Below, in pieces: positions 12,308-31,640 of a stretch of DNA of 64,000 nt. The DNA lies in NCBI RefSeq assembly GCF_038595065.1, contig NZ_CP152003.1, forward strand, positions 414,001 through 478,000, given 5' to 3'. Both the position numbers and the translations under genes were made by a program. Origin of the DNA: Sutcliffiella sp. FSL R7-0096 (GTDB taxonomy: Bacteria > Bacillota > Bacilli > Bacillales > Bacillaceae_I). The notes below the pieces were generated by a model, which ran no database searches, was not told the origin of the DNA, and saw only the letters and a program-made list of their open reading frames with translations. The number at the start of each line of letters is the position of its first letter. The stretch's first letter is position 1.

Positions 12308-13939
12308 ATGGCAAAAGAAATTAAGTTCAGTGAAGAAGCCCGCCGCTCCATGCTTCGCGGTGTAGACAAACTAGCTGATGCAGTGAAAGTAACATTAGGA
12401 CCAAAAGGACGTAACGTAGTACTTGAAAAGAAATTCGGTTCTCCACTAATCACAAATGACGGTGTAACCATCGCAAAAGAAATCGAACTAGAAGACGCAT
12501 TCGAAAACATGGGTGCGAAACTTGTAGCTGAAGTTGCAAGCAAAACAAACGACGTTGCTGGTGACGGTACAACAACTGCAACAGTTCTTGCGCAAGCAAT
12601 GATCCGCGAAGGATTAAAGAACGTTACAGCTGGTGCAAACCCAATGGGGATTCGTAAAGGAATCGAAAAAGCGGTTGCGGTTGCAATCGAAGAATTAAAA
12701 ACAATCTCTAAACCAATCGAAGGCAAAGCTTCCATCGCTCAAGTTGCAGCAATCTCTGCAGCAGACGAAGAAGTAGGTCAATTGATTGCAGAAGCAATGG
12801 AGCGCGTTGGTAACGACGGCGTTATCACTCTTGAAGAGTCCAAAGGCTTCACTACAGAGCTTGAAGTAGTAGAAGGTATGCAATTCGACCGTGGATATGC
12901 ATCTCCATACATGGTAACAGACTCCGACAAAATGGAAGCTGTTCTTGAAAACCCTTATGTGTTAATCACAGATAAGAAAATCACGAACATACAAGAAATT
13001 CTTCCAGTTCTTGAGCAAGTAGTACAACAAGGTAAGCCGTTGTTACTGATTGCAGAAGACGTAGAAGGCGAAGCGTTGGCTACATTAGTAGTGAACAAAT
13101 TACGTGGAACATTCAATGCAGTAGCGGTTAAAGCTCCTGGATTCGGTGACCGTCGTAAAGCAATGCTTCAAGACATCGCAGTACTAACTGGCGGAGAAGT
13201 GATCACAGAAGAACTAGGTCTTGACCTAAAAACTGCGAACATCAGCCAATTAGGACGCGCTGACAAAATCGTTGTAACAAAAGAAAACACGACTGTTGTA
13301 AACGGACACGGCAACACAGAAGAGATCCAAGCTCGCGTTGGCCAAATCCGTGCACAATTAGAAGATACAACTTCTGAATTCGACCGTGAAAAATTACAAG
13401 AGCGCCTAGCTAAAATCGCTGGTGGAGTAGCTGTAATCAAAGTTGGAGCGGCGACAGAAACAGAACTAAAAGAGCGCAAACTTCGCATTGAAGATGCTCT
13501 AAACTCCACACGTGCTGCAGTTGAAGAAGGAATCGTAGCCGGTGGTGGTACTGCTCTTGTAAACATCTACAACAAAGTAGCGGCAATCCAAGCAGAAGGC
13601 GACGAAGCAACTGGTATTAAAATCGTTCTTCGCGCAATCGAAGAGCCTGTACGCCAAATCGCGCACAACGCTGGTCTAGAAGGATCTGTCATCGTAGAAC
13701 GCCTGAAAAAAGAAGAAATCGGCATCGGATTCAACGCAGCAACAGGCGCATGGGTAAACATGCTTGAAGCTGGTATCGTTGACCCAACAAAAGTAACCCG
13801 CTATGCACTACAAAACGCAGCAAGCGTATCTGCAATGTTCCTAACTACCGAAGCAGTAGTAGCAGACATCCCAGAAGAAAACGCTGGCGGCGGCATGCCT
13901 GACATGGGCGGCATGGGTGGAATGGGCGGAATGATGTAA
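12308..13939 (+). CDS. groEL: Chaperonin GroEL
   Basis: This is a 543-residue 60-kDa chaperonin that folds proteins in a GroES-capped double ring. Motifs include [17 protein letters not shown], the ATP site [29 protein letters not shown] and the C-terminal Gly-Met tail ([10 protein letters not shown]). AGGAGGT precedes the ATG. Its last codons and following terminator are duplicated about 17.6 kb downstream (31524-31640), marking the far side of an accessory segment. Confidence 0.98.
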
Positions 13940-14019
13940 TGACCGCTCAATCCCTTGATATATAAGGGTTTTGAAGTGATTTGCTAACAAAATGCTAACA
14001 TAAGGTAAACATGAATGAG

Positions 14020-14058
14020 GCTTCTCAAAAGTTGATCCAACTTTTGAGAAGCTTTTTT
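14020..14058 (+). terminator. groEL-proximal terminator
   Basis: A 15-bp perfect stem (GCTTCTCAAAAGTTG / CAACTTTTGAGAAGC) with a 3-nt loop is followed by TTTTTTG. It is preceded at 13922-13961 by the sequence repeated at 31524-31563. Between here and the nik promoter at 14324 I see no gene. Confidence 0.92.
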
Positions 14059-14323
14059 GTGTTATATGTTCACCACATTCTCTCAGGTACACGCTTACAG
14101 AACTCTTGTAATACGTAGTAGCAATGACTGCGAACAAGATAAAATCTATTTCAAATGAAACGATAAAATATAATGAGTATTTATGGAGGGATATAATCAT
14201 TTTTATATCTATTGAAGCTCAAACATTAGGAGATAGAGCTCACTTGAATTTTTACCACATCCCTATACTTGATTATTAAAATATCAATAGACTTGATTCT
14301 TTGCTGAAAAATATGAAATTAAA

Positions 14324-14352
14324 TTGACAAATAGATGTACCCACATTACCAT
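14324..14352 (+). promoter_or_regulatory. Promoter of the nickel/metallophore ABC operon
   Basis: TTGACA (14324-14329) and TACCAT (14347-14352) are 17 bp apart. The Fur-like box starts on the next base. Confidence 0.65.
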
Positions 14353-14367
14353 TGATAATGGTTATCA
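14353..14367. promoter_or_regulatory. Fur box
   Basis: TGATAATGGTTATCA differs by one base from the Bacillus Fur 7-1-7 consensus TGATAATNATTATCA. It lies just after the -10 box, a classical repressor position, and predicts iron-dependent repression of the downstream importer. Confidence 0.75.
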
Positions 14368-14393
14368 CTTTCAACTAAAGGGGAGCAAGTTTA

Positions 14394-29399: not shown

Positions 29400-29437
29400 C
29401 ATTTAATTGAATAAGAGATCGAAAGGTGGTGAGAGGT

Positions 29438-30532
29438 ATGAAGAAACGACCAGAAGATACAAGAGTAGTAGTCGGTATGTCTGGAGGTGTTGATTCATCT
29501 GTTACAGCTTTGCTTCTTAAAGAGCAAGGATATGATGTAGTGGGTATTTTTATGAAAAATTGGGATGATACGGATGAAAGTGGTTTTTGTACAGCAACTG
29601 AAGACTACGAAGATGTGATTAAGGTTAGTAATCAAATTGGGATCCCATATTATGCGGTTAATTTTGAAAAACAGTATTGGGATAAAGTCTTCACATACTT
29701 CCTAGAGGAGTACAAATCAGGTCGGACACCTAATCCTGACGTCATGTGTAATAAAGAGATTAAATTTAAGGCGTTTTTAAATCATGCGATGTCAATTGGT
29801 GCTGACTATATTGCAACAGGTCACTATGCACGAGTTGAAGAAAAGGATGGACAATACCGATTGTTGCGAGGTACTGATCATAATAAAGACCAATCATACT
29901 TCCTTAATGCTCTTTCTCAAAAGCAATTATCGAAAACTATGTTTCCGCTCGGGCATTTATCCAAACAGGAAGTGCGTGAGATTGCGATAGAGGCAGGTCT
30001 TGCAACAGCAAAGAAAAAAGATAGTACGGGTATATGCTTTATCGGTGAACGAAATTTCAAGGAATTTTTAAGTGGCTTTTTGCCAGCTCAACCTGGTGAA
30101 ATGCAAACCATAGATGGTGAAATTAAAGGTCACCATGATGGTCTTATGTATTATACTATTGGTCAACGTCAAGGTCTTGGCATTGGCGGATCGGGGGAGC
30201 CTTGGTTTGTCATTGGTAAAGACTTAAAGCGTAATGTTCTGATTGTTGGACAAGGGTTTCATAACGAAGGACTTTATTCAGAAGGTTTAGAGGCTATTGG
30301 TATGAATTGGTTTAAAACAGATCTAACTTATAAGCAAGAATTTAGTTGTACCGCCAAAATGAGATACCGTCAAGAGGATCAAGAGGTAACAGTGTATCCG
30401 CAAGAAGATGGAACAGCAAAGATTTATTTTCACAAAAGACAAAGGGCTATTACCCCAGGACAAGCTGTTGTTCTGTATGATGGTGATATTTGTATTGGTG
30501 GGGGAACAATAGACCGTGTTATTAAAAAATAG
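29438..30532 (+). CDS. mnmA: tRNA-specific 2-thiouridylase MnmA
   Basis: MnmA thiolates U34 of Lys, Glu and Gln tRNAs. The PP-loop [10 protein letters not shown], the catalytic cysteines in [12 protein letters not shown] and [12 protein letters not shown], and the C-terminal beta barrel ending [10 protein letters not shown] are intact (364 residues). GTG 29426 is in frame but lies within the AAAGGTGGTGA ribosome site, so ATG 29438 is chosen. The usual Bacillus mnmA sits beside a cysteine desulfurase gene, which is absent here. This copy in an accessory segment may be a paralogue; the rest of the genome would decide. Confidence 0.9.
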
Positions 30533-30606
30533 GAAAAGGCCTAAATCCGTGAAAGTTCAATTATTACTACACTATTAAAATGAAAAGTATATCGGGGGAA
30601 TAAAAC

Positions 30607-31470
30607 ATGAAAATGTTAGTTACTGGAGCGACAGGAAAATTAGGTTCTAAAATTGTAGAGACTTTATTAAATAAGGTACCAGGAAACCAATTAGCTGTTA
30701 GTGTTCGTAATCCAGACAAAGCTGAAGGATTGCGGGCTCGAGGAGTAGATGTCCGAAAAGGTGATTTTGATTATCCAGAAACACTTGATGCGGCTTTTGC
30801 TGGCGTTGATCGCTTGCTAATTATCTCTGCGGATGGGGAAAATGAAACAAGAATTCGACAACACGCGAATGCAATAGCTGCTGCCGAGCGTGCTGGAGTG
30901 AAATTTATTGCTTATACGAGCATAGCGAATGCAAAGGAAAGTGAAAACTTCCTTGCTCCAACGCATAAAGCAACAGAAGAAGCTATCATGAAAACAGGTA
31001 TTCCTTATTCTTTTTTAAGAAATAATTGGTACTTGGAAAATGAAATTTCAAGTATTCAAGGTATTCTAGCAGGAGCTCCTTGGGTGACATCAGCAGGAAA
31101 TGGTAAGGTAGGATGGGCATTACAACAAGATTATGCAGAGGCTGCGGTTGCGGTATTGACTGGAAATGGCCACGAAAACACTATCTACGAGCTTTCTGGA
31201 AAATTATTAACACAGAAAGAGTTTGTATCAGCTCTTGGTAATGTATTGGGTAAAGAAGTACCAAAACAACAAGTAGACGACAATACTTATGCAGACATTA
31301 TGAAAGGTGCAGGTGTACCAGATTTTCTTATTCCTTTTCTTGTGGAAATCCAAACAGGAATTAGAGAAGGTACGCTTGAAGTAGAAAGCAATGACTTCGA
31401 AAAACTTCTTGGGCGTCCAGCTACACCAATTAGTGACGGACTCAATCAAATTGTTAATCGAATCTCTTAA
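30607..31470 (+). CDS. NmrA/QOR2-like NAD(P)H-binding oxidoreductase
   Basis: This atypical SDR of 287 residues has the N-terminal cofactor loop TGATGKLGSKIVE, then LLIISADGENETRIRQHANAI, FIAYTSIANAKES and SFLRNNWYLEN. The pattern matches YtfG/QOR2-type quinone reductases and NmrA-like redox sensors. It is often found near HxlR-family regulators. It starts 74 bp after mnmA, downstream of a GGGGGA site. Substrate unknown. Confidence 0.85.
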   Translation: MKMLVTGATGKLGSKIVETLLNKVPGNQLAVSVRNPDKAEGLRARGVDVRKGDFDYPETLDAAFAGVDRLLIISADGENETRIRQHANAIAAAERAGVKFIAYTSIANAKESENFLAPTHKATEEAIMKTGIPYSFLRNNWYLENEISSIQGILAGAPWVTSAGNGKVGWALQQDYAEAAVAVLTGNGHENTIYELSGKLLTQKEFVSALGNVLGKEVPKQQVDDNTYADIMKGAGVPDFLIPFLVEIQTGIREGTLEVESNDFEKLLGRPATPISDGLNQIVNRIS

Positions 31471-31523
31471 ACACTGAATCATTTCAAGAATTAAGAAAAG
31501 TTTTATATCACTCAATTTTAACC

Positions 31524-31640
31524 ATGGGCAGTATAATGTAATAGCTGCTCAAACCCTTGATATTATTGAGTATTAGAGTAATAATATCAAATTTATTGAG
31601 GCTTTCCATAAGTTTACTGAACAATGGAGAGCCTCTTTGT
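31524..31640 (+). pseudogene. Displaced groEL 3' end and terminator
   Basis: 31524-31563 matches 13922-13961 at 33 of 40 positions and reads in frame as the end of a GroEL tail (MGSIM then TAA, against MGGMM then TAA). It is followed by the same GCTCAANCCCTTGATAT. Then come the 11-bp inverted repeat TTGATATTATT (31557-31567) / AATAATATCAA (31580-31590) and a terminator-like stem GAGGCTTTCCAT / ATGGAGAGCCTC (31599-31636). The layout mirrors the region after the intact groEL. Confidence 0.7.

Follow-up and report, generated by a model that had tools for sequence, protein, structure and literature searches.

Why the end of groEL should occur twice at one locus is the question raised by a 64,000-nucleotide stretch of the Sutcliffiella sp. 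FSL R7-0096 genome (NZ_CP152003.1, positions 414,001 to 478,000; hereafter the window). The groEL gene itself occupies 12308–13939 on the plus strand and carries the PF00118 match. An initial annotation had reported that positions 13922–13961 recur at 31524–31563 and that the second copy still reads as a GroEL tail with a stop codon followed by a terminator, and alignment confirmed both observations. The two segments match at 33 of 40 bases in direct orientation with a spacing of 17602; the next best 40-mer match within the window, on either strand, reached 22/40, and 100 order-1 Markov windows gave no match above 25/40. Ungapped extension lengthened the repeat to 59 nt at 73% identity. The distal copy translates as M-G-S-I-M-stop versus M-G-G-M-M-stop at groEL, and hairpins of −24.0 kcal/mol (copy A) and −20.8 kcal/mol (copy B) lie 3′ of the two copies, each more stable than every one of 200 shuffles. 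As set out below, both copies are very probably relics of attachment-site junctions formed when tyrosine-integrase elements recombined into the last groEL codons, which would thus be the attachment site.

We refer to 13922–14058 as tail A and to 31524–31641 as tail B; they contain core A (GGGCGGAATGATGTAAT, 13924–13940, plus strand), which holds the GroEL end and stop, and core B (GGGCAGTATAATGTAAT, 31526–31542, plus strand), the putatively displaced GroEL end. A junction profile built without the window's genus gave its two top matches at 13928–14058 (E 2e-22) and 31536–31641 (E 1.1e-5). The same two palindromes scored 3.7e-5 and 6.2e-4 on the opposite strand, and the next match stood at 0.23. 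At both copies the match continues beyond the groEL stop and takes in hairpin sequence. In intact junctions the minus strand of this hairpin encodes the end of an integrase, for example KKEASQKFSELMRSLR-stop. The same place in the window reads HKKASQKLDQLLRSL at tail A (13987–14061, minus strand), where the groEL terminator hairpin predicted by folding (14017–14055, plus strand) lies within the putative integrase fossil, and KEALH, a frameshift and then FSKLMESLNK at tail B (31598–31641, minus strand; hairpin 31598–31635). An integrase C-terminal protein profile run in six frames also matched tail A (13987–14061, E 0.0087), together with a possible, weak third relic, KQIMDRLTHNDHK, at 21775–21864 on the minus strand (E 0.0063), which lies between a ygjP-like gene and a short-chain dehydrogenase/reductase (SDR) gene and was not seen at the corresponding place in genomes G001–G003 (G-numbers denote genomes compared and L-numbers loci read). 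A repeated pair, TGCTAACA, at 13982–14001 (plus strand) may represent integrase arm sites, judging by its position and its conservation among junctions.

The initial annotation had held that no integrase remains. This is true of the whole gene: the genome gave no match to a complete integrase at E ≤ 1e-60, and a tblastn search of the window with 64 integrases yielded nothing convincing, the best match (E 0.013) lying elsewhere. The integrase 3′ end, however, seems to survive as both terminators, according to the junction profile and the reading frames. Without an integrase, excision or transfer is not expected.

The suggestion that integrated elements elsewhere might use groEL ends was borne out. 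A search with one G015 integrase as query (E ≤ 1e-60) picked out relatives in 61 of the 299 genomes searched from the order, with approximately 81 matches by hand count; 70 loci were read and about ten matches left out. Counting integrase ends that scored >200 bits and included a stop, a groEL core lay 78–123 nt past the integrase gene (int) stop in 46 of 74 ends from the 70 loci, and 41 of these 46 had groEL itself in the locus. At these junctions, which span many Bacillales, int is convergent to groEL, and all three integrases checked carry PF00589 and Arm-DNA-bind_4. Two intact elements with an integrase have groEL at one boundary and a displaced core at the other: a 37-kb phage-like element in G015 and a 50-kb element in G014. 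The exact core was present in 262 of 299 genomes, with 0 matches to the reversed control among those listed, and approximately 90 of the 299 carried at least two copies (hand count, groEL paralogues still included). All 27 displaced ends, from many genera, start at the same groEL codons, at which the repeat in the window begins as well, and in 20 of them the core is preceded, at a distance of about 22 nt, by the arm motif (G/A/C)AT(A/G)TTAC.

These data also bear on a homologous or illegitimate duplication of the groEL tail and its neighbours (tail, cassette and ygjP) with no integrase involved. The window does contain an approximately 1-kb duplication that the initial annotation did not mention (19752–20798 versus 31681–32598), belonging to cassette A (19752–20831; a small minus-strand open reading frame (ORF) and FG-GAP-like ORFs) and its second copy, cassette B (31681–32628). 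The pieces are 77–95% identical and ygjP is doubled in G001, so such recombination has occurred here. Yet the uniform start of the 27 displaced ends, the arm motif in most of them and the intact integrases found at such junctions all speak against duplication as the origin of the repeat, and we consider it improbable. The cassette may nevertheless have driven rearrangement; in relatives, cassette copies lie close to ygjP or corA.

Intact junctions of the kind matched in the window usually place a hairpin inside the last int codons, and we examined this arrangement by a synonymous-codon test, in which codons were swapped for synonyms from the same gene and the last 22 codons refolded on the groEL strand. 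Integrases of at least 900 nt were used in the two shuffle tests that follow, and an end was called linked when a core-like motif lay 70–130 nt past the int stop. In a first test with 100 shuffles, at most five were as stable as the native sequence in 34/39 linked versus 3/23 unlinked ends; windows taken elsewhere in these genes had averages close to zero. In a second test with 200 shuffles, from which duplicates and L117 had been removed, at most 2 of 200 were as stable in 32/38 linked versus 0/20 unlinked ends, with mean z values of −3.93 and −0.25, respectively. L117, where groEL is 1.3 kb off, fails the linkage rule and had counted as unlinked in the first test; L118, which adjoins groEL with its motif at 54 nt, was kept as unlinked (z −0.88). 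A second sample, drawn partly from the same genomes, had the hairpin in 49 of 51 ends with a core; 41 of these 51 were absent from the first set, and 39 of the 41 had it. Of the 46 linked ends, 39 had their best terminator within int codons and 6 had it in the stretch separating groEL from int; 1 had none. Tandem integrase pairs beside groEL are frequent (G034, G021, G158, G132, G138 and others), and the second gene lacked a coding hairpin in the tested cases. Stems without an unpaired base were found in 7/9 groEL relic hairpins of the genus versus 3/46 intact integrases; the stem of tail B is imperfect, and all 8 relics from other genera have 2–4 unpaired bases. Given also the shared ancestry of the genus, the perfect stems are no more than a hint.

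The proposed mechanism is as follows. An incoming element would restore the groEL end and stop and place its own convergent integrase gene just beyond. After insertion the previous terminator would no longer adjoin groEL, and a replacement would come with the element: the last ~20 int codons which, read on the groEL strand, would form a strong hairpin followed by U's and presumably terminate transcription in vivo. With each later integration at the same core, older junctions would move further out. Of the integrase genes, only the 3′ ends would be left in the window, with tail A still behind groEL and tail B the older, displaced junction. At least two cargo layers mixed with the resident ygjP would lie between the tails. 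We infer that this integrase family made both junctions.

Gene order in relatives supports a layered history. A search of 16 genus genomes for a second core (GGGCGGNATGATGTAAT, ≤1 mismatch; reversed pattern as control, no matches) found one within 50 kb downstream of groEL in G004, G005, G008, G013, G014 and G015, and a copy far away in G010. Degenerate second copies occur in G007 and the window, and a weaker one in G006 on another contig. The DNA between copies varies, including a HamA/HamB pair in G007 and other defence-like genes in G013 and G008; among matches to defence models, L043 (G007) carries an MkoC-like protein besides HamA/HamB, and L045 (G013) an 'Effector' endonuclease and a PDC-M68B-like protein.

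In the window, the first cargo layer is an ATP-binding cassette (ABC) importer operon (14394–19489, plus strand: a family 5 solute-binding protein, two permeases and two ATPases), missing at the corresponding place in the mapped genus relatives. Cassette A and the ygjP-like gene (21043–21756, plus strand) follow. The second layer (21975–31470) comprises SDR, hxlB, hxlA, zwf, gnd, hxlR, Rrf2, luciferase-like, mnmA-like and NmrA-like genes, including the ribulose monophosphate (RuMP) cluster, and is present wholly or partly at the same locus in G001, G002, G003 and G005; G005 has the RuMP cluster flanked by two cores, and an integrase relic follows each core. Beyond tail B come cassette B and a right flank common to relatives (32727–34977), consisting of a DUF3139-like gene (32727–33149) and a corA-like gene (34018–34977). 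The G009 order is groEL, tail, ygjP, DUF3139-like gene, small ORF and corA. In G003, groEL is followed by tail A, a broken ygjP with other genes and SDR-hxlB-hxlA-zwf-gnd-hxlR-Rrf2-luciferase-like-nmrA, and then by tail B, an intact ygjP, the DUF3139-like gene and corA. On the strength of these three gene orders, tail B appears to mark the old boundary between the groEL tail and the right flank.

The initial annotation had attributed the layout to site-specific insertion into the groEL 3′ end and had taken the distal repeat for the displaced end. The kind of mechanism stands, as relatives with intact integrases show the same layout, but the single block does not. A single 17.6-kb element inserted once in groEL, with its ends at 13922 and 31524, would account for a block bracketed by direct repeats of the groEL end. 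However, ygjP, which lies inside the block, directly follows the groEL tail in G009 and tail B in G003, so the block is not one insertion. Moreover, ygjP exists as two intact copies in G001 and as a broken and an intact copy in G003, and relatives share the RuMP cluster without the importer operon there. With ygjP inside and layers differing among relatives, we rejected this explanation as highly unlikely. An empty site joining 13961 directly to 31564 was proposed as a check, and none was seen in the relatives compared. Nor did base composition help: the enclosed genes had been called AT-rich and foreign, but most of the window's 41–62 kb is equally AT-rich, and AT content was set aside as a sign of foreign origin.

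Another possibility, named by the initial annotation as a refuting outcome, is that tail B derives from a separate, once complete groEL paralogue. It is scarcely credible and was rejected: although G004 has a partial second groEL (approximately the last 130–140 codons) downstream of groEL, the genome under study holds one Cpn60 gene, the sequence at 31524 covers no more than the final five or six codons, and no further groEL codons lie upstream of the junction in G001, G002 and G003. The G004 fragment (L047, ~3239–3657 in groEL orientation) is a broken 3′ end inside an island, with its own terminator-like end.

Several observations weigh against reading both tails as relics of integrase junctions. 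The integrase protein profile matched tail B weakly (31511–31666, E 2.6), and the tail B fossil therefore rests on the DNA profile. No right-end arm was detected before 31524, where the right-end profile matched the core alone (31523–31541, E 31); a by-eye resemblance to an arm in the 30 nt upstream was dropped, as the profile gives it no support. At the junction after nmrA, G001, G002 and G003 keep the terminator and have lost the groEL codons, which leaves the window's copy alone among close kin in retaining them. Further recombination must be assumed to explain the duplicated cassettes and the presence of ygjP within the block. As to the coding hairpin, 6 of the 38 linked ends lack it (L146, L158, L172, L177, L179 and L180), the best terminator lying between groEL and int in the first five and in the coding part in L180; it is also present in 7 of the 13 second-sample ends for which no core was detected; and p-values are a guide only, the sequences being related.

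Integration at the groEL 3′ end is known from staphylococci and Geobacillus (PMC8125051, PMC4651549, PMC5341023, PMC3744691, PMC8303945). A figure legend lists groEL, rpsR, guaA, smpB and others as target genes of staphylococcal tyrosine integrases (PMC5341023, Fig. 4); groEL as a target site of this recombinase family would be a feature shared with the present case. The fusB resistance islands lie within groEL with a 21-bp attachment (att) site (PMC4651549). These and SeCISE48 with related phage-inducible chromosomal islands (PICIs) resemble the present case in integrating at the groEL 3′ end; they differ in host family, and the window has no complete integrase or recognised satellite genes. 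The available portions of their published descriptions mention no coding terminator. The integrase of Staphylococcus phage 2PHSA1, annotated as Staphylococcus aureus pathogenicity island (SaPI)-like, carries a groEL-like core past its stop, and its final codons form a hairpin of −22.5 kcal/mol. No PICI/SaPI satellite regulatory or packaging genes were found in the block, where Pfam was run on nine ORFs, giving transporter, ygjP, RuMP or enzyme families or nothing, and the others were read as translations only. SCC elements, which use ccr serine recombinases, have rlmH as their site, as opposed to groEL here. Geobacillus prophage phiOH2 adjoins groES/groEL with an integrase gene at its end (PMC3744691, PMC8303945). 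Its integrase is 53% identical to the G015 query, but no strong hairpin forms at the int 3′ end (−9.2 kcal/mol); by analogy with the similar junction L172, a hairpin outside int may substitute. The HB10c2 integrase end has a hairpin (−16.2) with no core found nearby, that of Tripp has no strong hairpin, and scanning viral contigs with one integrase yielded no relative. Presumably B. subtilis prophage 3 also lies beside groEL; a literature search did not confirm this.

Other features of the locus were noted in passing. No transfer RNA or Rfam element was found at the groEL site, the sole Rfam match in the window being a purine riboswitch (58109–58208). In three genomes (L050, L051 and L057) a similar insertion of about 115–150 bases, by eye like a miniature inverted-repeat transposable element, lies between the groEL stop and the tail. 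At 10076–10285, within an ORF (10076–10384) between tatC-like and CPBP-like genes, a 30-nt unit occurs in five imperfect copies with 21-/42-base spacing.

How a target gene keeps its terminator after insertion into its end is a question seldom asked. Integration at the groEL 3′ end is known; for the proposed use of int codons as the terminator of the target gene, no description was found in the literature searched, which lacked most subscription papers. A single DNA segment seemingly codes for protein on one strand and acts as groEL terminator on the opposite strand, the site having been used repeatedly across many genera of Bacillales. This provides a signature for element scars after integrase loss and accounts for repeated groEL tails. 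It is fairly likely that groEL-targeting integrases have turned the last ~20 codons of their own genes into a terminator for an essential target and that, after the element decays, this piece remains as the host's terminator, so that groEL in many Bacillales may end in captured mobile-element code, with layered fossils recording repeated integrations.

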